Origin: Pseudonocardia sp. HH130629-09
Lineage (GTDB): Bacteria > Actinomycetota > Actinomycetes > Mycobacteriales > Pseudonocardiaceae
DNA: 64,000 nucleotides
Direction: 5' to 3'
Assembly: GCF_001294645.1 (NCBI RefSeq)
Contig: NZ_CP011868.1
Coordinates: 5,828,001-5,892,000 of the forward strand
In this document: positions 22,971 to 36,017 of the stretch, piece by piece
How the letters are laid out: the number at the start of each line of letters is the position of its first letter
How positions within the stretch are numbered: position 1 is the first letter of the stretch
The notes under the pieces: model-generated
What the model was told of the DNA's origin: nothing
The model's input: the letters and a program-made list of their open reading frames with translations, nothing else
Databases searched by the model: none
Translations under genes and position numbers: made by a program

Positions 22971-23795
22971 CTAGGCCACCCGCGGGGGAGTCCGCTTCTC
23001 CGGACGGCGTCGCGCCAGGATCGAGGTGCCGTAAACGACGAGCGCCAGCCCGAGCAGCAGCAGCCACCACAGACCGGGGCGGACGGTGTCGTCGAGCAGC
23101 GTGATGCCGACCAGACCGGGCACGACGACCTGGGTGACCATGTAGAGCGCGGTCACCGTGGAGACGTCGCCGAGCTGCAGTGCGCGGGCGTAGTTGTACA
23201 GGCCGGTCAGCGCCATGCCGACCAGGATGTAGACCAGCGGCTCGCGCAGCAGACCGGCGAGGTCGACGCCCTCGGACACGTGCATCGCGCGGATGCAGAC
23301 CGAGCCGCCGCCCAGCCCGAGCCCGGCGAGCACCGCCGACGGCCACGGCTTGGTCGAGTTGGTGACCGCCAGCGTCGCCCCCATGAACACCACGAGCGCC
23401 GCGATCAGGACGGCCACGGTCGTGCCGTGGCCGGTCAGGGCCTGCTTGCGCTCGGTCCCCGCGCTGCCGGCGACGAACGCGAGCCCGAGGATGCTGGCGC
23501 CGATCGCCAGCCGGTGCACCGGCCGCAGCCACTCGCCGCGGAAGTAGCGGGCGTACAGGGCCGTCATCGCGATGGCCCCGGCGAGCGTGGCCTGCACCGC
23601 GAAGATGGGGATGTACTGCAGCGCCACGACCATGCAGAGCCAGGTCACGAGGTCCATCCCGATCCCGCCGACGAACCGGGGCCGGGCCAGGACCGCGCTG
23701 GTGCGCCCGCCCTGGTTGGCCGCGTCGGCCTGGAGGATGGCGGCGACGGTGCTGCAGAGCATCGCGAGCACCGCGAAGAACATCCCGATCAGCAC
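22971..23795 (-). CDS. DMT/EamA-type membrane transporter-like protein
   Basis: A 274-residue protein with nine or ten hydrophobic helices in two similar halves, as in the drug/metabolite transporter superfamily. Helix segments include MLIGMFFAVLAMLCSTVAAI at the start and GLWWLLLLGLALVVYGTSIL near the end, followed by an Arg-rich cytoplasmic tail. The substrate cannot be told. It is directly upstream of the alpha/beta hydrolase (9-bp gap), suggesting a two-gene operon. Confidence 0.75.
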   Translation of the reverse strand: MLIGMFFAVLAMLCSTVAAILQADAANQGGRTSAVLARPRFVGGIGMDLVTWLCMVVALQYIPIFAVQATLAGAIAMTALYARYFRGEWLRPVHRLAIGASILGLAFVAGSAGTERKQALTGHGTTVAVLIAALVVFMGATLAVTNSTKPWPSAVLAGLGLGGGSVCIRAMHVSEGVDLAGLLREPLVYILVGMALTGLYNYARALQLGDVSTVTALYMVTQVVVPGLVGITLLDDTVRPGLWWLLLLGLALVVYGTSILARRRPEKRTPPRVA

Positions 23796-23862: not shown

Positions 23863-24198
23863 CTACCGGGTGCCGGCCGGGCGGGCGTCCGACGGGGCGG
23901 GCCGCTGCTCGGGCAGCGCCGCGGGCATCTCGAAGAAGCCGCTCATCAGCCCGCGGCCGGGCTGCTCGTCACGCGTGTCGGCGGCGGCCTGCCAGGGAGA
24001 GGTGCCTACCTGGACGGCCCGGCGCTGGGCCAGCACGGCCCGCGGGCGCTCGGTGAGGACCAGGACGCCGACCGTCAGGGCCACCCCCACCAGCAGCGGC
24101 CCGCCGACCACCAGGATCGGCCAGCCCACCACGGCATAGGCGAGCACCAACGCACCCGCTGCCATGCCGATGACCGCCCCCGCCAACCGCGTCACCAC
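23863..24198 (-). CDS. Small membrane protein, unknown function
   Basis: 111 residues with two hydrophobic segments (about 5-25 and 28-50) and a long soluble C-terminal tail ending in a Pro/Ala-rich stretch. No family recognised. Good codon bias and a plausible GTG start at 24198. It stands alone between the transporter gene and the Hsp70-like gene, all on the minus strand. Confidence 0.6.
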   Translation of the reverse strand: MVTRLAGAVIGMAAGALVLAYAVVGWPILVVGGPLLVGVALTVGVLVLTERPRAVLAQRRAVQVGTSPWQAAADTRDEQPGRGLMSGFFEMPAALPEQRPAPSDARPAGTR

Positions 24199-24481: not shown

Positions 24482-26533
24482 TCACGCGGCTGCCGGAGGG
24501 ACGCTCGACGACGGCGCGGGAGCCGTGGTCGTCGGGCCCGGGACCGGGCTGGTCGGGTCGGTGGCGGGCGGGGTGGTGACCGGCGGGGTGGTCGGATCGG
24601 ACGTGCCCTCCGCCGGCGTGTTCGGGCCCGTGCTGGTCGCCGGCGGTGTGGTGACCGGCGGGGGCGACACCACCGGGGCGGACGGCACGGCCGGTCCCGG
24701 AGCGGCCGGGGCAGGCGCGGCCGGAGCGGGCGCGGCCGGAGCCGGGGCGCCGGGCGCGGTCGGCGCAGCGGCACCCGCGGTGGCCGCGCCACCCGAGGTG
24801 CCGGCGCGCGTCCCACCCACGGGGGCGCCCGCGACCGGGCCGGCCGCGCCGCCGGCGGCCGGGGCGGCGCCCGGGGTGACCGGAGCCGGTGCGACGGCCG
24901 GTGAGCTCAGCACGGGGGCTGCGCTCAGCTCACCGATCCCCGGGCTCGTCGTGGGCCAGAACAGCAGCGCACCCGCGATGGCGGCGGCACCGGCGAGGCC
25001 ACCGGCACCGACCATCAGGCGCTGCCGGGTGACCACGCCGCGGCGGGCCGCGCCGGCGGGGGCGTCCCGGGTGACCAGGGTGTCCGGCGCGGGACTCTCC
25101 GGGCGGGCGACGGCCGGGCCGGTCACCTGTCCGGCCCCGAGGACCGACGTCCGTGCGGGGGCGGGGGGCTGGGCCGTACGGGTGCGGGGGACCGCGGTCA
25201 GCGGGCCGGTCGGCGGCTCCGGGTCGAGCAGGGCGACGGCCGTGCGGTCCGTGGCGGGCGCCTCGGTCCGTGCGGTCCGCTCCCGCTCGCCGCGGGTCGG
25301 CCACGCGGGGGTGGTCCGGTCGGTCCGGTCACCACGGTCGACGCTGCCGGCGCGGTCGGCGGTGTCCGGCCCGGGCCGGTCCCACGGGCTGTGCCCGGCG
25401 GGGTCGACGGGCTCGCGGGGGGTGGGGACACCGGTCAGCGGCGCCATCCGCACACCGGGCCAGGAGGTCCCGGCCCCCGGCGCGACGGCGAGTGCCGCGC
25501 CCCGGGCGGCGTCGGCCACCGGGTCCGCGACGACGGCGACCGGGCGGCCCAGTGCCGCCGAGACCGCCTGCACCACGACCGGCATCCGTGCGGCGCCGCC
25601 GGCGAGCAGCACCTCGGCGTCCGGGGCGGCGGCCACGACGTCCTGCACCAGGTCGGTGACCGGCTCGAGCAGCGGGCGGGTGAGCTCGTCGAGGTCGGAG
25701 CGGTGGATGCGGACCGCGGTCCGCAGGCCGGGCAGCTCCACCGGGACGGTCGCGACCGTGTCCCGGGACAGCAGCTGCTTGGCGGCGCGGCACTCGTCGC
25801 GCAGGGAGGTCAGAGCGGCCACGGTCCGCGGGTCGTCGAGGTCGAGCGCGTCGAACGCGGCGGCCGTGGCCGGGGAGGAGGACCGGACGAAGGCGAACGC
25901 CGCGTCGTCGACGTCTCCGCCACCGGTCCGGCAGGTCAGCGTGCGACCGACGGCGTCGGGCAGCACCCCGGGTGCGGCCGCGGCCAGCACGGTCGCGGTG
26001 GTCCCGTTGCCCCCCAGGTCGACGACGGCGAGCGGCCCCCCGGCCGGCACGACGGCGCGGTGGGCGAGCGCGACGGCCTGCGGCGCGGTCACCAGCGAGA
26101 CGGTCAGCCCGCGGCGACGCAGGGCGGCGGCCAGCAGGTCCCGCTTGTGCCGGCCCCAGCCCACCGGGCAGGTGACGCCGATCCGGGACGGCGGGCCACC
26201 GTGCCGGGTGGACACCTCGTCGACCAGGACGCGCACCAGCCGGGCGCACAGGTCCTCGGCCGCGTAGGCGAAGCCGCCCAGCGACAGCGGTGTCGGGTCC
26301 CCGACCCGGTCGAGGAAGCCACGTGCGACACGGTCCGGCTCGGCCGGGGCCCGGCGACGGGCGGGCTCACCGCAGAGCAGGTCGCCCCCGGGCGTCGCGA
26401 CGAGCACTGCGGGGAGCACGTCGCTCCCGTCGCGGCCGCCCAGCCGGACGGACTCCGCGGCACCACCCGTGCGCAGCACGGCCGCGGTCACCGAGGTGGC
26501 CCCCAGATCGATCCCGAGCAGGTACGACACCAC
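24482..26533 (-). CDS. Hsp70-like ATPase with membrane anchor and Pro/Ala-rich tail
   Basis: 683 residues. Residues 1 to about 350 form an actin/Hsp70 ATPase fold: phosphate-1 loop GIDLGATSVTAAV, phosphate-2 VDLGGNGTTATVL and the adenosine motif VLLAGGAARMP. Instead of a substrate-binding domain there is a charged, Pro/Thr/Arg-rich linker (about 350-510), one transmembrane helix (MVGAGGLAGAAAIAGALLFW, about 520-540) and a low-complexity Ala/Pro/Thr tail of about 130 residues, probably outside the membrane. It is divergent from the IniB-like genes across 242 bp, which suggests a shared role and perhaps shared control. Many actinobacterial Hsp70 family proteins of this build are uncharacterised; chaperone activity is not assured. 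Confidence 0.85.
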   Translation of the reverse strand: MVSYLLGIDLGATSVTAAVLRTGGAAESVRLGGRDGSDVLPAVLVATPGGDLLCGEPARRRAPAEPDRVARGFLDRVGDPTPLSLGGFAYAAEDLCARLVRVLVDEVSTRHGGPPSRIGVTCPVGWGRHKRDLLAAALRRRGLTVSLVTAPQAVALAHRAVVPAGGPLAVVDLGGNGTTATVLAAAAPGVLPDAVGRTLTCRTGGGDVDDAAFAFVRSSSPATAAAFDALDLDDPRTVAALTSLRDECRAAKQLLSRDTVATVPVELPGLRTAVRIHRSDLDELTRPLLEPVTDLVQDVVAAAPDAEVLLAGGAARMPVVVQAVSAALGRPVAVVADPVADAARGAALAVAPGAGTSWPGVRMAPLTGVPTPREPVDPAGHSPWDRPGPDTADRAGSVDRGDRTDRTTPAWPTRGERERTARTEAPATDRTAVALLDPEPPTGPLTAVPRTRTAQPPAPARTSVLGAGQVTGPAVARPESPAPDTLVTRDAPAGAARRGVVTRQRLMVGAGGLAGAAAIAGALLFWPTTSPGIGELSAAPVLSSPAVAPAPVTPGAAPAAGGAAGPVAGAPVGGTRAGTSGGAATAGAAAPTAPGAPAPAAPAPAAPAPAAPGPAVPSAPVVSPPPVTTPPATSTGPNTPAEGTSDPTTPPVTTPPATDPTSPVPGPTTTAPAPSSSVPPAAA

Positions 26534-26641
26534 TGCTCCCCCCTCGTCGAACCGGCACGCCGGCGTGGTCCTCTCCCCGACCCATCGGCGGGGGCCGCTC
26601 CGGCGTTAGCCGGTGCCGCGCAGCGGAACGAAGTGGGGGAC

Positions 26642-26682
26642 CGATCCCCTAACGGCCCCCCGACGGACCCGGAGCGATCCCC
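26642..26682 (+). promoter_or_regulatory. Direct repeats upstream of the first iniB-like gene (candidate operator)
   Basis: Two copies of CGATCCCC (26642-26649 and 26675-26682) lie 33 bp apart, close to three helical turns, in the 242-bp divergent region. The first is within a small inverted repeat GGGGACCGATCCCC. The iniB-like start at 26776 has a good ribosome site (CCGGAGG). The spacing suits a dimeric or multimeric activator, but this is pattern-based only. Confidence 0.35.
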
Positions 26683-26775
26683 GATGGCCGGGCGGCCCGG
26701 CGCCCCTAGCTTTCGTCGTCAACACCGGTCGTCGCCGACGGACCGGTCACCCCCCGAGCGACTCCGGAGGCCGAC

Positions 26776-27582
26776 ATGGCTGCACACGACATCTCGCTGA
26801 TCGACTTCATCAAGCTCCTGCTCGGCAGCGGCTCCGAGAGCATCCAGGTCCGCGACTGGTTCAACGACAACCCGAACGCGGTCCTGCAGCACTACGGCCT
26901 CGCCGACCTGTCCCCGGAGGACGTCCGCGACGCGCTGGTCATCGCGCAGGACAACGACACCGTGTCCTTCGACCGCCACTACGACACCGGCTTCAACTGG
27001 GGCGGCGACGAGGGCGGCTGGAGCGAGGGCAAGGGCGACCACGGCCACAAGGCCGCCGCCTCCCACGAGAACGTGCACGTCAAGGACGTCTGGCACACCG
27101 AGAACATCGACGACCGCGACACCATCGTCGACAACTCCGTGAACCAGCACATCAACACCCACGGCGGCGACTTCGACCAGGACATCGACATCCGGTCGAC
27201 CACCGCCTCCGGTGACGGCGCGGTGGCCGCCGGCGGTGACATCGACGGCTCCACCATCACGACCGGCAACGGCAACGTCGTGGGCGACGGCAACAACGTG
27301 GTCAAGGGCGACGGCAACACCTCCGCCTTCGGTTCCGGCTCGGCCACCAAGACCGGCGACATCTCCGCCGACAAGGGCGGCGCGGTCTCCATCGGCGGCA
27401 ACGCGACCGGCTCGCACGACGCGACCGACTCGTTCAACAAGACCTGGACCGAGACCCACGAGAACACCGAGATCCACGACTCCGGGAACCTCGACGCCAG
27501 CACCGAGACCCACACGTCGATCGACGACCACAGCCACACCGACATCGCGTCGCACAACGGCATCGACCTCGCCGTCGGCTGA
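26776..27582 (+). CDS. IniB-like protein 1 (IniB N-terminal domain, Asp/Asn/Gly/Thr-rich core)
   Basis: 268 residues. Residues 1-65 match the IniB N-terminal domain: SLIDFIKLLLGSGSESIQVR, then DWFNDNPNAVLQHYGLADLS and SPEDVRDALVIAQDNDTVSFDR. After a His/Gly-rich linker comes a core (about 115-225) of short turns such as ASGDGAVAAGGDI, NVVGDGNNVVKGDGNT and FGSGSATKTGDIS, which could form a beta-solenoid. The C-terminus is acidic and rich in Thr/His/Asp. There is no signal peptide or membrane helix. Mycobacterial IniB is the first gene of the isoniazid- and envelope-stress-inducible iniBAC operon, with unknown biochemistry. A perfect hairpin follows 15 bp after the stop. Confidence 0.8.
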   Translation: MAAHDISLIDFIKLLLGSGSESIQVRDWFNDNPNAVLQHYGLADLSPEDVRDALVIAQDNDTVSFDRHYDTGFNWGGDEGGWSEGKGDHGHKAAASHENVHVKDVWHTENIDDRDTIVDNSVNQHINTHGGDFDQDIDIRSTTASGDGAVAAGGDIDGSTITTGNGNVVGDGNNVVKGDGNTSAFGSGSATKTGDISADKGGAVSIGGNATGSHDATDSFNKTWTETHENTEIHDSGNLDASTETHTSIDDHSHTDIASHNGIDLAVG

Positions 27583-27597
27583 CCCACCGCACCGCCC

Positions 27598-27638
27598 GGT
27601 GACCGGGCCGGGACGCCCCCGACCCCGGCCCGGTCACC
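27598..27638 (+). terminator. Strong hairpin between the two iniB-like genes
   Basis: A perfect 15-bp stem GGTGACCGGGCCGGG with an 11-base loop begins 16 bp after the first iniB-like stop. It could terminate, or partly attenuate, transcription, or protect the 3' end of the first mRNA. No U-tract follows. Confidence 0.7.
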
Positions 27639-27705
27639 ACCTCCCGCACCACCCGAACCCTCCGCCGAGCGCGCGAGCCCGGCGGCACCCGCAGAGGAGA
27701 TCGCC

Positions 27706-28500
27706 ATGTCCGTCGAGAAGTCGCTGATCCAGTTCATCCTGGACCTGCTGAAGGACCCCAAGGCCCTGGCCGAGTTCAAGGAGGACCCGCACGGTGTCCT
27801 CGCCCAGTGCGGCCTGTCCGAGGTCTCCGCCGACGACGTCCGCGACGCCCTGGTCCTGGCCCAGGACAACGACGACGTGTCCTTCGACCGTGACTACAAC
27901 ACCGGCGGCGGCCACGGCGGCCACCACCACACCCCGCCGCCGCCCGTCCACCACGGCGAGGACCCGGTCAAGTACATCGACAAGTACGTGACCAACAACC
28001 ACTACACCTACAACGTCGACGACCGCGACACCATCGTCGACAACTCGGTGAACCAGAACATCGACACCGGCGGCGGCGACTTCAACCAGTCCATCGACAC
28101 CAAGTCGGTCGTCGCGTCCGGCGACGGCTCGGTGGCCGCCGGCGACGACATCCGCGACTCGACCGTCACCACCGGCCACGACAACATCGTGGGCGACGAC
28201 AACAACGTGGTGAAGGGCGACGGCAACACCACCGCCTTCGGTTCCGGCTCGGCTACCAAGACCGGCGACATCTCCGCCGACCACGGTGGCGCCGCGGCCG
28301 TCGGTGGCACCGCCACGGGCTCGAACGACGCGACCGACTCGTTCAACAAGACCCACACCGAGACGCACAGCTCGACCGACATCGACGACTCGTTCAACGC
28401 CGACACGAGCACCCACACCGACACCGATGTGGACAACCACAGCCACACCGACGTGCTGTCGCACAACGACGTCTCCACCGACGTGCACGTGGGCCTCTGA
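27706..28500 (+). CDS. IniB-like protein 2 (tandem paralog)
   Basis: A 264-residue paralog of the preceding gene. The N-terminal domain reads SLIQFILDLLKDPKALAEFK, then DPHGVLAQCGLSEVSADDVR and DALVLAQDNDDVSFDRDYNT. A His/Pro linker (HHHTPPPPVHHG) replaces the Gly-rich one. The core (about 105-215) is nearly the same as in protein 1: DDRDTIVDNSVNQNIDTGGG, NNVVKGDGNTTAFGSGSATK and TGDISAD. The tail is again Asp/Ser/Thr/His-rich. The linker and N-domain diverge more than the core, so the core is probably the functional part. Start ATG 27706 follows GCAGAGGAGATC, a good ribosome site. A very strong hairpin follows the stop. Confidence 0.8.
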   Translation: MSVEKSLIQFILDLLKDPKALAEFKEDPHGVLAQCGLSEVSADDVRDALVLAQDNDDVSFDRDYNTGGGHGGHHHTPPPPVHHGEDPVKYIDKYVTNNHYTYNVDDRDTIVDNSVNQNIDTGGGDFNQSIDTKSVVASGDGSVAAGDDIRDSTVTTGHDNIVGDDNNVVKGDGNTTAFGSGSATKTGDISADHGGAAAVGGTATGSNDATDSFNKTHTETHSSTDIDDSFNADTSTHTDTDVDNHSHTDVLSHNDVSTDVHVGL

Positions 28501-28547
28501 CCCACCGCACTGCTCCGGGCGGAGGAGCAGGTTCGACCGCCCGGACC

Positions 28548-28587
28548 GACGGCCCCGGACACCCACCCGTGGGTGCCCGGGGCCGTC
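28548..28587 (+). terminator. Very strong hairpin between iniB-like 2 and the dynamin-like genes
   Basis: Arms GACGGCCCCGG-CACCCAC and GTGGGTG-CCGGGGCCGTC pair with one small internal mismatch around a 2-base loop, 47 bp after the iniB-like stop and 76 bp before the iniA-like start. It should act as a terminator or attenuator, so the GTPase genes may have lower or separate expression. Confidence 0.75.
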
Positions 28588-28663
28588 ACCGTTCGTGTAT
28601 CCATGACGAGGACGTGACGGATGCCGCCGGGCACCGTCCGCGACGTATCTGGGGGGAGCGGTC

Positions 28664-30493
28664 GTGGCAGTGCCGGAGGCGGTCGCGCTCGTCGACCTCG
28701 CCCTCAAGGCGGTCACTGCCTACGACCGCCCCGACCTGGCGCCACGGCTGCGGCAGACGAAGGCGCGGCTGACCGACCCGGTCGTGCGGGTGCTGGTCGT
28801 CGGCGAGTTCAAGCAGGGCAAGAGTCAGCTGGTGAACGCGCTGGTCAACGCCACCGTGTGCCCCGTCGACGACGACATCGCCACCGCCGTGCCGACGCTC
28901 GTGCGCTTCGGCGAGGAGACGTCGGTGACCCTCGTGCGCGAGGCCCCCGGGACCGACGGCGTGGCGACCGAGAAGGCCGAGCGGACCGTCGTCGGGCTCG
29001 ACCAGCTCGCCGAGCACGTCTCCGAGGCCGGCAACCCCGGCAACCGGGCCCGGCTCACCCGCGCCGAGGTCACGCTGCCCCGCAAGCTCCTGCAGAGCGG
29101 GCTGGCCCTGGTCGACACCCCCGGCGTCGGCGGGCTCGGGTCCGCGCACGGCGCCGCGACGATGTCGGCGCTGCCCACCGCGGACGCGGTGCTGCTGGTC
29201 TCCGACGCCAGCCAGGAGTACACCGCCCCCGAGCTGGAGTTCCTGCAGGCCGCGCGCAAGCTGTGCCCGAACGTCGCCTGCATCGTCACCAAGACCGACC
29301 TGTACCCGCACTGGCGGCGGATCGTCGAGCTCGACGAGCGCCACCTGCGCACCGCCCGGATCGATGCCGAGCTGCTGCCGGTGTCCTCCGCGCTGCGGCT
29401 GCACGCGGCCCGCACCCAGGACCTCGACCTCATCGCCGAGTCCGGCTTCCAGGCGCTCACCAGCTTCCTGCTGCGTAAGGTCGTCGGTGCCGCCGACGAC
29501 CTCGACCGCCGCTCCACCAGCCAGGACGTCCTCGTCACCTGCCAGGCCCTGGAAGCCACGATGCGGGCCGAGCTGATGTCGCAGAACGACCCGGAGAAGG
29601 CCGGTCAGCTCGCCCGCGAGCTGGAGGCCGCGCGGTCGCGCGTCGACGGGCTGCGCCAGCGCTCCGCGCGCTGGCAGACCACGCTGACCGACGGCGTCGC
29701 CGACCTCATCGCCGACATCGAGTACGACCTGCGCGACCGGCTGCGCGCGGTCTCCCGCGACGCCGAGCAGCTCCTGGAGGACGCCGACCCGGCCGACATC
29801 TGGGACCAGTTCGCCGAGTGGTTCCACAAGCAGGTGGCCCACGCCGTCGCCCAGAACTTCGTGTGGACGACCGAGCGGGCACGCTGGCTGGCCGAGCAGG
29901 TGGCCGAGCACTTCGCCGAGGCCGTCGACGTGACCCTGCCCGAGCTGCGGGTCGCGGGCGGCTCGGTGGCCGGGCTCGTCGACCCGCTGGAGATGCCCGC
30001 GGACGAGAAGTTCGGCATCGGGCAGAAGCTGTTCGTCGGCGCCCGCGGCGGTTACGGCGGCATGCTGATGTTCGGTCTCGCCTCCACCTTCGCCGGGATC
30101 GCCCTGCTCAACCCGCTCTCGGTCGGTGCGGGTCTGCTGTTCGGCGCCAAGACCGTGCGCGACGAGAAGAAGCGCTTGAAACAGCGCCGCCAGGCCGAGT
30201 CGAAGAACGCCGTGCGCCGGCACATCGACGAGGTCACCTTCCAGGTCGGCAAGGACTCCCGGGACAACCTGCGCCGCATCCAGCGCGACCTGCGCGACCA
30301 CTTCACCACCGTCGCCGACGAGCTGTCCGAGGCGCTGAAGGAGTCGGTCGCGGCCGCGCAGACCGCCCTGAAGGACGACGCCGAGCGTCAGCAGCGCGTC
30401 GCGGACCTGGAGGCCGAGCTGGAACGGGTGACCGGCCTCGCCGAGCGGGCCAGGGCACTGGCCGCGGCCGTGGGCTCCGGTGGTCCGACGTGA
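28664..30493 (+). CDS. Dynamin-like GTPase, IniA-type
   Basis: 609 residues. G1 is GEFKQGKS at 47-54, G3 DTPG at 151-154 and G4 TKTD at 209-212. A helical stalk follows, then a hydrophobic hairpin (about 465-497, LMFGLASTFAGIALLNPLSV) that would insert into or cross the membrane, and a basic plus coiled-coil C-terminus (QRVADLEAELERVTGLAERA). This is the layout of mycobacterial IniA, a bacterial dynamin-like protein shown to remodel or fission membranes. GTG 28664 follows a GGGGGGAG ribosome site. It overlaps the next GTPase gene by 4 bases, so the two are co-translated as a pair. Confidence 0.88.
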   Translation: MAVPEAVALVDLALKAVTAYDRPDLAPRLRQTKARLTDPVVRVLVVGEFKQGKSQLVNALVNATVCPVDDDIATAVPTLVRFGEETSVTLVREAPGTDGVATEKAERTVVGLDQLAEHVSEAGNPGNRARLTRAEVTLPRKLLQSGLALVDTPGVGGLGSAHGAATMSALPTADAVLLVSDASQEYTAPELEFLQAARKLCPNVACIVTKTDLYPHWRRIVELDERHLRTARIDAELLPVSSALRLHAARTQDLDLIAESGFQALTSFLLRKVVGAADDLDRRSTSQDVLVTCQALEATMRAELMSQNDPEKAGQLARELEAARSRVDGLRQRSARWQTTLTDGVADLIADIEYDLRDRLRAVSRDAEQLLEDADPADIWDQFAEWFHKQVAHAVAQNFVWTTERARWLAEQVAEHFAEAVDVTLPELRVAGGSVAGLVDPLEMPADEKFGIGQKLFVGARGGYGGMLMFGLASTFAGIALLNPLSVGAGLLFGAKTVRDEKKRLKQRRQAESKNAVRRHIDEVTFQVGKDSRDNLRRIQRDLRDHFTTVADELSEALKESVAAAQTALKDDAERQQRVADLEAELERVTGLAERARALAAAVGSGGPT

Positions 30494-31968
30494 GCGCGCT
30501 GACCGAGCAGACCCGCGCGCTGCTGCGCCGGACCCTGGACGCCTACGGCGACTCCCCGCAGGCCGCGGGCTGGCTGCGCCACCACCTCGACCGGTTCGAC
30601 GAGCCGCTGCGCGTCGCGATCGCCGGGAAGGTCAAGGCCGGCAAGTCCACCCTGCTCAACGCCCTGGTCGGCGAGCGGATCGCACCCACCGACGCGGGCG
30701 AGTGCACCCGCATCGTCACCTGGTACGCCGACGCCCCCACCCCGGGCGTGCGGATGCACCTGCGCTCCGGCGCCGACCGCCCGCTCACCCTGGCCCGCCG
30801 CGACGGTGCCCTGCAGATCGACCTGCAGGGCACCCGGGTGGAGGACGTCGACCGGCTGCACGTCGACTGGCCGTCGCAGCACCTGCGCCGCACCAACCTG
30901 ATCGACACCCCCGGCATCGGGTCGCTGACCACCGACGCGGCCGGCCGGGCCGGGGAGTTCCTCACACCGGAGGACACCCCGTCTCCCGCCGACGCCGTCG
31001 TCTACCTCATGCGTCACCTGCACGCCGGTGACGTGCGGTTCCTGGAGGCATTCCACGACCGCGGCGTCGCCCGCGCGACCCCGGTGAACACCATCGCGGT
31101 GCTCTCGCGCGCCGACGAGATCGGCGTCGGCCGGCTCGACGCGCTGATCTCGGCGCGCCGGATCGCGCGGCGCTACCGCGGCGACGACAAGCTGCGGGGG
31201 CTGTGCCAGACCGTCGTCGCCGTCGCCGGGCTGCTCGCAGAGACCGCCCGCACCATGCGGCAGGACGAGTACGTCGCGCTCACCGAGCTCGCCGCGCTCC
31301 CGCGTGGCGACGTCGAGGCGCTGCTGCTGTCGGCCGACCGGTTCGGACGCACCGATCTCGACCGGCCCGACGCCGCCGCCCGGATCGCGCTGCTGGAGCG
31401 GTTCGGACTGTTCGGCGTCCGGCTCGGGACCACGCTGATCCGCCAGGGAGTGAAGGACCCGACCGCGCTGGCCGACGACCTGGTGCGCCGCTCCGGACTC
31501 GACGAGCTGCGCGCGGTGCTCGACACCCAGTTCTCCGAGCGCCGCGACCTGCTCAAGGCCCGCTCCGCGCTGCTCGCCGTCGACCTCGTGCTGACCCGTG
31601 AGCCCCGCCCGGCGACGGCCGCGCTGCGTGCCGAGGTGGAGCGGATCCTGGCCGGGGCGCACGAGTTCGTGGAGCTGCGGGCCCTGGCAGACCTGCGCGC
31701 CGGGAAGATCGTGTTCCCGCCGGAGGCGCTCGCCGACGCCGAACGGCTGCTCGGCGGCGAGGGCGGCTCGGCGTCGGCCCGGCTGGGGCTCGACGGCGCC
31801 GCGGGCCCGCGCGAGGTCCACGACGCCGCCTCCGAGGCGCTGCGCCGCTGGCGGCGGCGGGCGGAGAGCCCGCTGACCGGGCGGGCCTCGGCGGAGGCCG
31901 CGCGGATCGTGGTGCGCTCCTGCGAGGGGCTGCTCGCCGAGGCGTCCCGACCGCACGCGCACCACTAG
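30490..31968 (+). CDS. Dynamin-like GTPase, IniC-type
   Basis: 492 residues from GTG 30490, inside the preceding stop (GTGA). G1 is GKVKAGKS at 46-53, G3 DTPGIGS from 139 and G4 LSRAD near 207-210. The rest is helical and lacks an obvious membrane hairpin, as in mycobacterial IniC, the presumed partner of IniA. It probably forms a hetero-assembly with the upstream GTPase at the inner membrane. The ending PHAHH is rich in His. The minus-strand MarR gene converges 7 bp beyond the stop. Confidence 0.87.
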   Translation: MSALTEQTRALLRRTLDAYGDSPQAAGWLRHHLDRFDEPLRVAIAGKVKAGKSTLLNALVGERIAPTDAGECTRIVTWYADAPTPGVRMHLRSGADRPLTLARRDGALQIDLQGTRVEDVDRLHVDWPSQHLRRTNLIDTPGIGSLTTDAAGRAGEFLTPEDTPSPADAVVYLMRHLHAGDVRFLEAFHDRGVARATPVNTIAVLSRADEIGVGRLDALISARRIARRYRGDDKLRGLCQTVVAVAGLLAETARTMRQDEYVALTELAALPRGDVEALLLSADRFGRTDLDRPDAAARIALLERFGLFGVRLGTTLIRQGVKDPTALADDLVRRSGLDELRAVLDTQFSERRDLLKARSALLAVDLVLTREPRPATAALRAEVERILAGAHEFVELRALADLRAGKIVFPPEALADAERLLGGEGGSASARLGLDGAAGPREVHDAASEALRRWRRRAESPLTGRASAEAARIVVRSCEGLLAEASRPHAHH

Positions 31969-31975
31969 GCAGGAG

Positions 31976-32425
31976 TCAGGGCGTCGTGTCCAGGGCATGC
32001 AACGCCGCGACCAGCGGGGCCAGCTCGGGTCGTGTCGCCGCGTCGGCCAGTGCCCGTTCCAGCGCCCGGTCGTAGCCCGGGCGGGCGCTCTCCAGGAGCA
32101 GACGCCCCTGTTCGGTGAGCTCGGTGTAGATGCCGCGCCGGTCGGTGGGGCACAGGTACCGCTGCAGCAGACCCCGGTCCTCCAGCCTGCCGACCAGCCG
32201 GGTCGTCGCCGACGGGCTCAGCGCGACCACCGACGACAGCTGGGCCATCCGCAGGTGGAACCCGTCCTGGCGGGCCAGCGCGTCGAGCACGGTGTACTCC
32301 ACCACCGACAGCCCGTACGAGCGCTGCAACGCCCGCTCCAGGTCGTCCTCCAGCCGGGCGTGCAGGGCGGCCAGGGTGCGCCACCCCCGCGCCCGCGTCT
32401 CGACCGCGTCGTCGTCGAGCGACAT
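31976..32425 (-). CDS. MarR-family transcriptional regulator
   Basis: 149 residues with the winged-helix layout of MarR: VEYTVLDALARQDGFHLRMA, recognition region VALSPSATTRLVGRLEDRGL and the wing CPTDRRGIYTELTEQG. It would repress genes in the cytoplasm and be released by a small ligand. It is divergent from a short-chain dehydrogenase gene (142-bp gap), the usual arrangement for its target. No clear palindromic operator was seen between them. It sits next to, but convergent with, the IniC-like gene. Confidence 0.9.
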   Translation of the reverse strand: MSLDDDAVETRARGWRTLAALHARLEDDLERALQRSYGLSVVEYTVLDALARQDGFHLRMAQLSSVVALSPSATTRLVGRLEDRGLLQRYLCPTDRRGIYTELTEQGRLLLESARPGYDRALERALADAATRPELAPLVAALHALDTTP

Positions 32426-32566
32426 GGCATCCGTCCCCTTCGGGTGTCGGTGCTACGTTGGCGGCGTCAGCAATAACCAGAGTGTGCAACTATCGGCGTG
32501 CGCTGGCTGTTGCGCGTGCCGTCACCACGATACGAGACGGCCGCCCCGACTCCTGGAGAGACAGCC

Positions 32567-33303
32567 ATGCACCTCGACCTGACCGGCCGGACCGCCCTCG
32601 TGACGGGTTCCACCCAGGGCATCGGACTCGCCATCGCCGTCGGCCTGGCCCGCGCGGGCGCCCGGGTCGCGGTCAACGGCCGTACGGCGGACCGGGTCGA
32701 CGAGGCCGTCGCCCGGGTCCGGGACTCAGCGACCCTGGTGGCGGCGCTGCCCGACGTCGACGTCCTGGTCAACAACCTGGGCGTCTTCGGCGCCCAGGAT
32801 GCCCTCACCATCACCGACGACGACTGGCGTCGCTACTTCGAGGTCAACGTCCTGACCGCCGCCCGGCTGATCCGGACCTACCTGCCCGGCATGCGGGACC
32901 GCGGCTGGGGCCGCATCCAGAACATCGCCAGCGACTCCGCGATCGTCATCCCGGCCGAGATGATCCACTACGGTGTGTCCGAGACGGCGCTGCTGGCGCT
33001 GTCCGGGGGTTCGCCAAGGAGGCGGCTGGCAGTGGGGTCACCGTCAACTCGGTGATCGCCGGGCCGACGCACACCGCGGGCGTCGAGGACTTCGTGTACC
33101 AGCTGGTCGATCCGGCCCTGCCCTGGGACGAGGCCCAGCGCGAGTTCATGCGCACCCACCGGCCGCAGTCGCTGATCCAGCGGCTGATCGAGCCCGAGGA
33201 GATCGCCCACATGGTGACCTACCTGGCCTCCCCGCAGGCCTCGGCCACGACCGGAGCCGCGGTCCGGGTGGACGGCGGTTACGTCGACTCGATCCTGCCC
33301 TGA
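32567..33303 (+). pseudogene. Short-chain dehydrogenase/reductase, frameshifted and internally shortened
   Basis: The sequence starts well: VTGSTQGIGLAIAVGLARAG, VNNLGVFGAQDALT, a catalytic region NIASDSAIVIP then HYGVSETALLAL. At about 33005 the frame changes; the rest, GFAKEAAGSGVTVNSVIAGP to the normal end VDGGYVDSILP, is in another frame. One missing C in a CCCGGGGG-type run explains it. In addition, about 20 residues between the second and fourth strands seem absent (VARVRDSATLVAALPDVDVL), which may remove part of the cofactor site. The Tyr of YxxxK is present but Lys is replaced by Thr (YGVSET). It was probably the MarR target. Confidence 0.75.
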
Positions 33304-33313
33304 CCGAGCGGGG

Positions 33314-35911
33314 TCAGCCGCGGTCGCCCAGGATCCGGCGGAGCTCGTCGAGCAGCTCGCTGCGGCTGCGCACCCCGAGGCGCTGGCGCATCCGGGCCAC
33401 GTGGTGCTCGACGGTCTTCGCCGAGATGAACAGCGCCTCACCGATCTCACGCTGGGTGCGCCCTTGCACGACGAGCTCGGCGACCTCCAGCTCACGCTCG
33501 GACAGCAGTCCCGACGCGGCCGGCTCCGGGGCGGCCTCGACGGGCGCCGGAGCCGCGACGGCGGGCTCCTCGGCCACCGGGCGGGGCTCCTCCGCCGGCG
33601 GTGGGACGGTCCCCTGACGCAGGTCCGTGCCCGCGGCCTGCAGGGCCCGCGCGCAGGCCAGCAACGCCGACACCGCGCGCCGGTCCCCGGTCCGCAACGC
33701 CGCCTGCCCGGCGAGGCGGCCGCCGTCGAAGGACAGGCCGACGGCGTGCAGCCCGCGGGCGGCGGCCTCGACCTCGGCCGCGTCGACCCGGTCCTCCAGC
33801 ACCCCCACCCAGTGCGGGGCCGCCGTCGCCATGGCGTGGGCGAAGCGGCTGCCGCAGGCCGCGCGCTGGAGCTCGTCGGAGCGGGCGCGGGCGGCCTCGA
33901 CGTCGTCGGTGAGGACCGCGGCCTGCAGCCGTGCCCAGTGCAGCGGGGCGGCCCACAGCGCGGGCCGGCCGAGCCGGTCGAGCAGCGCGTCGGCCTCGGC
34001 GAGGTGCGGGGCCACCCAGCTCTCCTCCCGCAGCCGCGACGCCGCGGTCACCAGCTCCCCGAGCGGCTGCAGCACGTAGAGGTCGACCGGGTGGCGGACG
34101 ATCGCCTGCCGGGCCCGCGTCCAGGACCGCATCAGGGCGCCGAGGTCGGACTGGCGGCGGGCGATCGCCACCTGCAGTGCCGCGGCGAGGAACTCGTCGC
34201 GCGGTTCGAGGGTTTCGTCGCCCGCGTCGACGGCGGCGAGCCGCTCCGATGCCGGGCCGGTCGCGCCGCGCAGCAGCGCGATCCAGCCGAGCAGCAGCCG
34301 GTGCCGGGCCCGGGCGGGTGCCCCGCCGAGCCCGGTCCGCAGGGCACGGTCCAGTACGGACGCGGCGACATCGAACTCCCCGGTGTGCACGGCCACCAGC
34401 GCGGCCAGCGCGGCCGGGGTGTCGGGCAGCAGCGCGGCGCCGTGCGCGGCCTCCAGGAGCCCGGCGGCGCGGGCCAGGCCGGACAGTGCTGCCGTCGGGG
34501 AGCCCTCGACCGAGTCGAGCATGCCGCGGGCGGTCAGGTCGTCGGCGCCGTCGACCAGGGTGGGTGCACGGCCGGCGACGAACCCGGAACCGCCGCCCCC
34601 GACGACGGCGCGGGCCTCCTCCAGCGCCCCGGTCCCGATCAGGACGGGCACGGCCGCAGCGGGCGGGCGCTCCCCGGACACCGCGGCGGTCCACCGGTAC
34701 AGCTCGGCACTGCGCGCCAGCAGACCCCGCCGGGCGAGGACGGCGGCCGCGACCGACCCGGCCCGGACGGCGTCGGTGGCCTCGACGGCGTCGGTCGCGG
34801 ACAGCACCGAGTCGGCGTGCCCGAGCGCACCGTCGAGGTCCCCCGCGACGAGGTGGGCCTGCGCGCGGTGCGCGGCGACGGTCAGCGGGGGTGCCCCCGC
34901 GGCGACGGCCTCGGCGTAGAACCGGACCGCGTCCGGGCTCTCCGCGCGGGCCGCCTCGGCCGCGGCGGCCCGGAACACCGCGGCGGCACGCTCCCCGGTG
35001 GCCCCGGACCCGCGCAGGGTGCGGGCGACGGCGAGCACGCTCCCGCCGCGGTCGAGCTCGATCTCGGCGAGGTGGCGGCGCAGCTCGGCCCGCCGGGCGG
35101 GCGCGACCCGGGCGCGGATCGACTCGGCGACCAGCGGGACGACCCGCCCGTCGGGGGTGCAGAGCCCCGCGGCGACGGCCCGGCCGGACAGCTCGTCGAG
35201 CTCGGCGATCTCGGCGCCGACGCCGATGCCTGCCGCGTCGGAGATCCCGAGCAGCGGGACGAGCACCTCGCCGTCGACGGGGGCACCGAGCGCGAGCGCG
35301 GTGACCAGCTCGACCACCCGTGGGTCCTCGGCGTCGACGGCGTAGCCGATCTGCTCGGCGAGCTGCGGGGGTACCGGCCCGCCGACCCGGCCGGTCGCGA
35401 GTAGCCGGTCGACCAGCATCGGGGACCCGGCGGTGCGCTCGGCGACGGCGCGGAGGGCCTCGTCGGTGATCCGGGTCCCGGCGACGCGGGCGGCGCGCGC
35501 GGCGATCCCGGCGGCGTCGAGCGCGCCCAGGACCAGCGGCGGGGCGGCGGCCAGCGTCGCCCCGAGCCGGGCCAGCGCGCGGCCGCGCGGCCAGGGCCGG
35601 AACGCGACGACCAGCCGGGCGTCCGGACGGCCCGCCTGATCGCGCAGGTCGGTGAGCTCGTCGTCGCCGAGGTCGTGGGCGTCGTCGACGACGGTCACGC
35701 CCTCCCCGGCGCCGGCCTCGGTCCACACCCGGACCAGCTCGCGCAGCACCGTCGACTTTCCCGCCCCGGCCGGACCGGTGACGGCCACCAAGCGCGGCGC
35801 GGCCGGGTCCTCGGCGACGGCCCGGACCAGCGCGATCGACGCGGGGGCGCCGGCGAGCGGGCCGGTCGCCGTCGCGGGGGAGGGGGAGGGGGACGTCGTG
35901 GGTGCCGCCAT
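33314..35911 (-). CDS. Large ATPase-LuxR transcriptional regulator
   Basis: 865 residues from ATG 35911, which has a GGAGGGG ribosome site; an upstream in-frame start would almost meet the divergent gene. The Walker A is TGPAGAGKS (45-53) and a Walker-B-like VTVVDDAHD follows, then a long helical repeat region. The C-terminal LuxR helix-turn-helix reads LSERELEVAELVVQGRTQRE, then IGEALFISAKTVEHHVARMR. This is the MalT/LAL-like layout of signal-sensing activators. In Mycobacterium a large regulator (IniR) lies beside iniBAC and responds to trehalose; this gene is a positional candidate for a similar role, but it is separated by the MarR/SDR pair. Confidence 0.85.
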   Translation of the reverse strand: MAAPTTSPSPSPATATGPLAGAPASIALVRAVAEDPAAPRLVAVTGPAGAGKSTVLRELVRVWTEAGAGEGVTVVDDAHDLGDDELTDLRDQAGRPDARLVVAFRPWPRGRALARLGATLAAAPPLVLGALDAAGIAARAARVAGTRITDEALRAVAERTAGSPMLVDRLLATGRVGGPVPPQLAEQIGYAVDAEDPRVVELVTALALGAPVDGEVLVPLLGISDAAGIGVGAEIAELDELSGRAVAAGLCTPDGRVVPLVAESIRARVAPARRAELRRHLAEIELDRGGSVLAVARTLRGSGATGERAAAVFRAAAAEAARAESPDAVRFYAEAVAAGAPPLTVAAHRAQAHLVAGDLDGALGHADSVLSATDAVEATDAVRAGSVAAAVLARRGLLARSAELYRWTAAVSGERPPAAAVPVLIGTGALEEARAVVGGGGSGFVAGRAPTLVDGADDLTARGMLDSVEGSPTAALSGLARAAGLLEAAHGAALLPDTPAALAALVAVHTGEFDVAASVLDRALRTGLGGAPARARHRLLLGWIALLRGATGPASERLAAVDAGDETLEPRDEFLAAALQVAIARRQSDLGALMRSWTRARQAIVRHPVDLYVLQPLGELVTAASRLREESWVAPHLAEADALLDRLGRPALWAAPLHWARLQAAVLTDDVEAARARSDELQRAACGSRFAHAMATAAPHWVGVLEDRVDAAEVEAAARGLHAVGLSFDGGRLAGQAALRTGDRRAVSALLACARALQAAGTDLRQGTVPPPAEEPRPVAEEPAVAAPAPVEAAPEPAASGLLSERELEVAELVVQGRTQREIGEALFISAKTVEHHVARMRQRLGVRSRSELLDELRRILGDRG

Positions 35912-36017
35912 CCTCGTCCGCCCCTCCGGTCGCCCGATCGGGTCGCCCGATCGGGGACGACCGAGGGTAGCGGGTGCGGTGACCGGTCCCCCCGCCGGAC
36001 CCGGCAGGATCACCGGA

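Follow-up and report, generated by a model that had tools for sequence, protein, structure and literature searches.

The DNA analysed here, a 64,000-nucleotide stretch of Pseudonocardia sp. HH130629-09 (hereafter the window; positions 5828001–5892000 of a 6.3 Mb genome in two contigs), carries an iniBAC-type locus in which the gene of a degenerate Hsp70-like protein (pseudo-Hsp70) stands divergent from the genes of two IniB proteins and two dynamin-like GTPases. A preliminary description of this DNA had named these five genes, including the divergent Hsp70-like gene, the two tandem iniB genes and the 4-base overlap of the GTPase genes, and all of them were found in place. A sixth member of the locus, absent from that description, encodes an IniR-type regulator. 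The features, in window coordinates, are as follows:

24482–26533, minus strand: pseudo-Hsp70 gene, 683 amino acids; PF00012 match of 73 bits, best stretch residues 87–349
25484–26533, minus strand: Hsp70-type nucleotide-binding domain (residues 1–350), from motif alignment and AlphaFold
24962–25036, minus strand: single predicted membrane helix of pseudo-Hsp70 (residues 500–524)
26776–27582, plus strand: IniB1, first iniB gene; IniB N-terminal domain scoring under the curated cut-off, then a low-complexity tail
27706–28500, plus strand: IniB2; IniB_NTERM domain, then a low-complexity tail without a confident model
28664–30493, plus strand: IniA, bacterial dynamin-like GTPase (GTPase 1); PF00350 and solved-structure match
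30490–31968, plus strand: IniC, dynamin-like GTPase (GTPase 2); dynamin N-domain, 4-base overlap with iniA
33314–36013, minus strand: IniR-type regulator, 899 residues; AAA/STAND ATPase and LuxR helix-turn-helix (GerE), convergent with iniC

IniB2 scored 68.8 bits against the NCBIfam model IniB_NTERM, above its cut-off of 40, and IniB1, with 29.6 bits, stayed below it yet was 60% identical to IniB2. IniA matched the Mycobacterium smegmatis IniA structure 6j72 almost from end to end (residues 7–603 versus 5–599, E 1.8e-133), and the dynamin GTPase domain PF00350 was recognized in both GTPases (74.2 bits in IniA and 42.5 bits in IniC, cut-off 27). The start codon of iniC, a GTG, overlaps the iniA stop in the tetranucleotide GTGA (30490–30493). 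IniC was 45% identical over 490 amino acids to the IniC of locus L161, which belongs, judged by its IniA, to a close relative of M. smegmatis (family f8). The regulators of these two loci shared 37% identity over 854 amino acids, and the true start of the IniR-type regulator may lie inside the annotated open reading frame. The closest named relatives of IniA, among the best 80 of 349, were from Pseudonocardia, the nearest being 96% identical in the best segment. With a full-length IniA, an IniB carrying IniB_NTERM, IniC directly after IniA and an IniR-type regulator, the earlier assignment to the iniBAC type was borne out. The locus is a complete iniBAC envelope-stress module under the predicted control of IniR, including a conserved pseudo-Hsp70; from the observed gene identities and their conservation we infer the working model set out further below.

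Mycobacterial IniR is a specific activator of iniBAC, and the accessible text of PMC5760070 (Boot et al. 2017) describes it as MalT-like, its authors deducing that it senses in the periplasm. The same text places iniB* next to iniBAC, devotes one sentence to a dnaK-like gene that neighbours iniR in M. smegmatis and reports iniB to be missing in that species. The window and the mycobacterial iniR–iniB*–iniBAC locus have in common near-full-length IniA, IniC, two IniB-like genes, IniR and, for M. smegmatis, the dnaK-like gene; unlike in the mycobacterial locus, iniR of the window lies beyond iniC, convergent with it, and two other genes stand between them. The combination found here had been taken as no part of the described mycobacterial operon, but that view is contradicted by the iniB* and dnaK-like genes in the accessible text of PMC5760070 and by family f8, in which the Hsp70-like gene was divergent from the first iniB gene in 21 of 25 IniB-bearing loci. 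According to the available portions of the respective sources, M. smegmatis IniA cuts membranes in vitro (PMC6715688) and normal vesicle levels need both IniA and IniC (review PMC11077946). Among the papers listed in our search, mostly freely accessible ones, none dealt with the Hsp70-like gene apart from that sentence in PMC5760070, and none described how it is conserved throughout the class, how its active site has degenerated or that it overlaps iniR. The module itself is known; what is new are the pseudo-ATPase features of the Hsp70-like protein, the Hsp70–IniR overlaps and the ATCCCC(G/T)A elements.

The conservation of the module was followed in several sets of loci. The near set comprised 40 stretches in which IniB had been hit, drawn from the genus itself and from two further families of the order; 26 of them hold IniA and 23 of these also the Hsp70-like gene, the remaining three (L037, L039, L067) ending close upstream. 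The named set consisted of the best 80 of 349 confirmed loci with an IniA alignment, and in the 55 with at least 6.5 kb upstream the divergent Hsp70-like gene was present in 53, IniB in 51 (50 by the position rule of the script, which missed L136), IniC in 55 and IniR in 54. The named loci without an IniB hit were L127, L144, L145 and L154, the first three of which still keep the Hsp70-like gene. For the order-wide set, an IniA-like match at E <= 1e-40 was obtained in 118 of 248 genomes and 80 stretches were read; the 76 with room gave a divergent Hsp70-like gene in 61, IniB in 66, IniC in 71 and IniR in 68. The Hsp70-like gene was divergent in 60 of the 66 IniB loci of this set, the other six being L177, L179, L180, L188, L197 and L198. 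Among the 76, L182 and L184–L187 (one genus, g39, of f8) carry lone IniA-like dynamins without IniB, IniC, IniR or Hsp70-like neighbours. Class-wide, 32 of 296 genomes gave an IniB hit, 13 of these genomes lying outside the order, and 12 stretches were read, two weak hits being excluded. Each of the 10 strong loci from outside the order, which had been selected by IniB, contained all five genes, with a varying gene order and with the Hsp70-like gene not divergent at L240–L243; the other two stretches were a contig-cut one from f8 with IniR, Hsp70-like gene and IniB, and a weak hit with IniB only.

Most of the related loci that were examined show the arrangement again, which takes it beyond chance, and with recurrence across the order and of the genes outside it, chance or artefact was rejected as an explanation. 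The Hsp70-like gene is conserved beside iniB, iniA and iniC; a lack of such conservation in relatives would have spoken against the preliminary description. The label 'expanded' that the description gave to the locus was rejected, since loci with more than one IniB gene are frequent, making up 44 of 116 IniB-bearing loci with room (22 of the 50 in the named set, 22 of the 66 in the order-wide set).

AlphaFold modelled pseudo-Hsp70 as a confident Hsp70-type domain (residues 1–350), a disordered linker of low confidence, a membrane-type helix (500–524) and a disordered tail of 159 residues rich in Pro, Ala, Thr, Ser and Gly; the best solved-structure matches were DnaK ATPase domains. The protein shares the nucleotide-binding domain fold with the DnaK/Hsp70 chaperones. 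Unlike DnaK, it lacks the substrate-binding domain and lid, the catalytic Lys and DLGGGTFD, and adds the membrane helix and the Pro-rich tail. The Pfam match stops at residue 349, with linker, helix and tail in place of the missing parts, so for the window protein the earlier statement that it has a membrane anchor and no substrate-binding domain was right. Its motifs read GIDLGATSV, GEPARRRAP (without the DnaK Lys), DLGGNGTT (instead of DLGGGTFD) and GGAARMP. The catalytic Lys, essential in DnaK, was present in 6 of 6 DnaK proteins and in none of 155 Hsp70-like copies, 121 having another residue and 34 a gap. The DLGGGTFD-type signature was lost in 95 of these copies, including those of f8, the window copy and its closest relatives (L036, L079–L081), and kept in 60; most other Pseudonocardia copies retain it. 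The adenosine-side GG motif is largely retained while the hydrolysis residues are gone. Since the Lys is absent from all copies and the signature from 95 of 155, the Hsp70-like protein looks, from its sequence, like a pseudo-ATPase, and the name ATPase given to it before does not fit a protein with key catalytic positions lost. The window copy was only 34% identical, over 288 amino acids, to that of L161. By a hydropathy rule the membrane helix was present in 99 of 130 divergent copies, and the remaining 31 include copies truncated at contig ends and some that fell narrowly below the threshold. The membrane anchor is lineage-specific.

Further Hsp70-like genes were seen as well. In the mycobacterial family a second degenerate copy lies beyond iniC or iniR at L161, L162, L164, L165, L167–L172, L174 and L175, and a true dnaK falls within the same 18-kb stretch at L169, L172, L173, L176, L178 and L183. 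The genome of the window has a second Hsp70-like gene with a membrane helix and no substrate-binding domain (L076:1198-3018), 39% identical and with intact signature motifs, which by eye adjoins a transposase-looking gene.

The preliminary description had pictured a membrane-repair machine in which the Hsp70-like protein works with the IniB-like proteins. As a working part of such a machine, the protein might anchor or cycle IniB and the IniA/IniC GTPases, in analogy to Hsc70, which helps to dismantle membrane coats. Its position as the divergent neighbour of the IniB–IniA–IniC genes (53 of 55 loci in the named set, 61 of 76 in the order-wide set) and its helix in 99 of 130 copies speak for such a machine, as does a partial distance correlation of 0.54 with IniC versus -0.10 with IniA and 0.26 with IniR. 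However, the catalytic residues are lost and the substrate-binding domain is absent, 19 complete order-wide copies have no membrane helix by hydropathy, the gene is kept at three loci where no IniB was found (L127, L144, L145), and it is with IniR, to which it is often joined, that its gene overlaps. The claim that the protein works with the IniB-like proteins lost ground on these points, and we consider the machine unlikely.

In the order-wide set the Hsp70-like gene and iniR stood in tandem at 56 of the 76 loci, in the named set at 18 of the 55, and over 78 tandem pairs the median gap was estimated at -12 nucleotides. A stop/start overlap, in which an ATG or GTG in the IniR frame overlaps or abuts the Hsp70-like stop, was present in 30 of 79 pairs versus a mean of 9.5 (4–16) in control windows taken further into the same IniR frame. 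A start in the IniR frame within 20 nucleotides was found in 63 of 79 pairs versus a control mean of 35.6 (20–49), a result that is weak alone; because this control already reaches 35.6 of 79, it is the stop/start overlaps that carry weight. They are of the same kind as the iniA–iniC overlap in the window. Hsp70–IniR fusion proteins, considered as proof of a partnership, were not found among the tandem pairs. The presence in most of the relatives examined of a degenerate Hsp70-like gene, its product often membrane-anchored and the gene itself often joined to the regulator gene, suggests a stress-sensing role, and we infer that pseudo-Hsp70 may be a gate or sensor of IniR.

A different kind of sensing was also considered. 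The induction of iniBAC, studied in bacillus Calmette–Guérin (BCG), depends on the drug-induced rise in ATP (PMC6104191, in its accessible part), and the Hsp70-like protein could be the ATP sensor that ties induction to this rise after cell-wall drugs, its membrane helix being incidental. An Hsp70 nucleotide fold that mostly keeps the adenosine-side GG motif and has lost the hydrolysis residues would suit that task. On the other hand, the authors of PMC6104191 propose the ATPase domain of IniR itself as the ATP sensor, BCG is not reported to have an Hsp70-like gene at the locus, and the Hsp70-like protein is no more than a putative nucleotide binder; we consider such a sensor quite improbable.

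The divergent promoter region between the pseudo-Hsp70 gene and iniB1 contained two elements:

26644–26654, plus strand: ATCCCCTAACG element, candidate IniR site; from the sequence, of an enriched element class
26677–26710, plus strand: ATCCCCGATGG-N17-CCTAGC element ahead of iniB1; the only one in the genome

The pattern ATCCCCGATGG-N14-20-CCTARC occurred exactly once in the genome, at this place. Upstream of the first IniB gene, CCCCTAAC was present in 55 of 122 regions versus 0.6 expected and CCCCGATG in 55 of 122 versus 3.5 expected, with a read-backwards control of 0; for CCCCTAA the read-backwards control gave 19 and 21 versus 26 and 79 observed. The read-backwards control of ATCCCC is uninformative because reversal of these patterns yields AATCCCC and CCCCTA, which themselves belong to the elements. 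Upstream of iniB lie conserved ATCCCC(G/T)A elements, which are candidate IniR sites. The boxes bound by MalT hold GGGGAT, resembling ATCCCC on the other strand. In Escherichia coli the partner that holds MalT is part of a transporter; the candidate partner here is pseudo-Hsp70.

On the other side of this promoter, a small membrane-protein gene (23863–24198) and a transporter-like gene (22971–23795) come after the Hsp70-like gene on the same strand, and both are conserved in much of the genus. The Hsp70-like gene might merely share the divergent promoter and serve another envelope task, with these two genes as its partners, which indeed follow it in 11 of 24 loci with the Hsp70-like gene. The 20 named loci with a transporter-like match of over 100 bits (among the best 80 of 349) were, however, all from Pseudonocardia, whereas the Hsp70-like gene, iniR and iniBAC occur together across the class, and we regard this explanation as very improbable.

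Several observations concern the IniB proteins. For IniB2 AlphaFold gave a confident model only for about residues 6–54, which form four helices, and the whole IniB model found nothing better than E 4.1 in Foldseek. A beta-solenoid fold of the IniB tail was set aside, nothing confident being modelled past about residue 55. So was a role as a precursor of ribosomally synthesized and post-translationally modified peptides (RiPPs), the similarity to the borosin precursor SonA being weak only; the scores against the LigA-like domain and the helical domain of the SonA leader are too weak for a claim of kinship, and RiPP enzymes were not searched for. Genomes of the genus carry extra IniB genes, as many as seven in one genome, in stretches without a GTPase or Hsp70-like hit (L048, L050, L059, L060, L063, L066, L069, L070, L072). 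At L043, L061, L062, L064 and L074 a protein rich in Asp, Asn and Gly, by eye without the IniB N-terminal domain, directly follows the divergent promoter. The genes between iniC and iniR in the window (31976–33303) encode a MarR protein and a short-chain dehydrogenase/reductase. MarR had no match at the iniA-bearing loci L035–L074 and none over 40 bits at the named loci L079–L158. The dehydrogenase/reductase gene reads in two overlapping frames (32498–33055 and up to 33303) and may be frameshifted or misassembled.

A number of observations weigh against pseudo-Hsp70 as a partner of IniR. In the window and most loci of its genus, the main exception to the Hsp70–iniR tandem, iniR lies beyond iniC and operon coupling is absent. 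The link between signature loss and the tandem, which in itself favours the partnership, with 85 of the 95 copies that lost the signature sitting in loci with the tandem, is strong in counts (which include second copies) but confounded by ancestry. The distance-correlation test in 127 loci, which is rate-confounded, gave partial values of 0.79 for IniA–IniC, 0.18 for IniR–IniA and -0.03 for IniR–IniC, and the value of Hsp70 with IniC exceeded that with IniR; the test gives IniR no advantage over IniC as the partner of the Hsp70-like protein and leaves room for the membrane machine. The 19 complete copies without a helix rule out a transmembrane sensor as the general mechanism. At L177, L179, L180 and L188 of the mycobacterial family, iniR, two IniB genes and iniA/iniC are present without a divergent Hsp70-like gene, which is therefore not indispensable there, and another Hsp70-like copy adjoins iniC. 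Finally, the named and order-wide sets share a few organisms, and in the accessible texts the dnaK-like gene is named at the locus by Boot et al. only for M. smegmatis (PMC5760070), while the ATP rise was studied in BCG (PMC6104191).

Our working model, in which pseudo-Hsp70 gates or senses for IniR while IniB, IniA and IniC remodel the membrane, remains tentative and is given somewhat less than an even chance. In this lineage pseudo-Hsp70 would be held at the membrane, its tail presumably outside, and would bind nucleotide without normal hydrolysis, serving IniR as a partner or gate. Damage to the cell wall would raise the inducing signal, pseudo-Hsp70 would change its state, and IniR would be freed or helped to bind the ATCCCC(G/T)A elements of the divergent promoter and to switch on iniB1-iniB2-iniA-iniC. 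The IniB proteins, each with a small helical docking domain and a low-complexity tail, might then gather at the damaged envelope, where the IniA/IniC GTPase pair would bend and cut the membrane for repair or vesicle release.

IniR is known as the regulator of iniBAC, and what links envelope damage to it is a gap for which a degenerate, often anchored Hsp70, whose conserved gene overlaps iniR in many lineages, is a concrete candidate. The boldest form of this idea, doubtful as it is, holds that the STAND regulator IniR has its missing receptor or gate in a pseudo-Hsp70 without normal ATP hydrolysis. The Hsp70 fold would then act as a signalling subunit, translationally coupled to the regulator in many actinomycetes, and in anchored lineages it would signal damage of the envelope through the membrane and so induce an IniB coat and a dynamin pair. 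If true, a chaperone fold would here have been put to new use in signalling.

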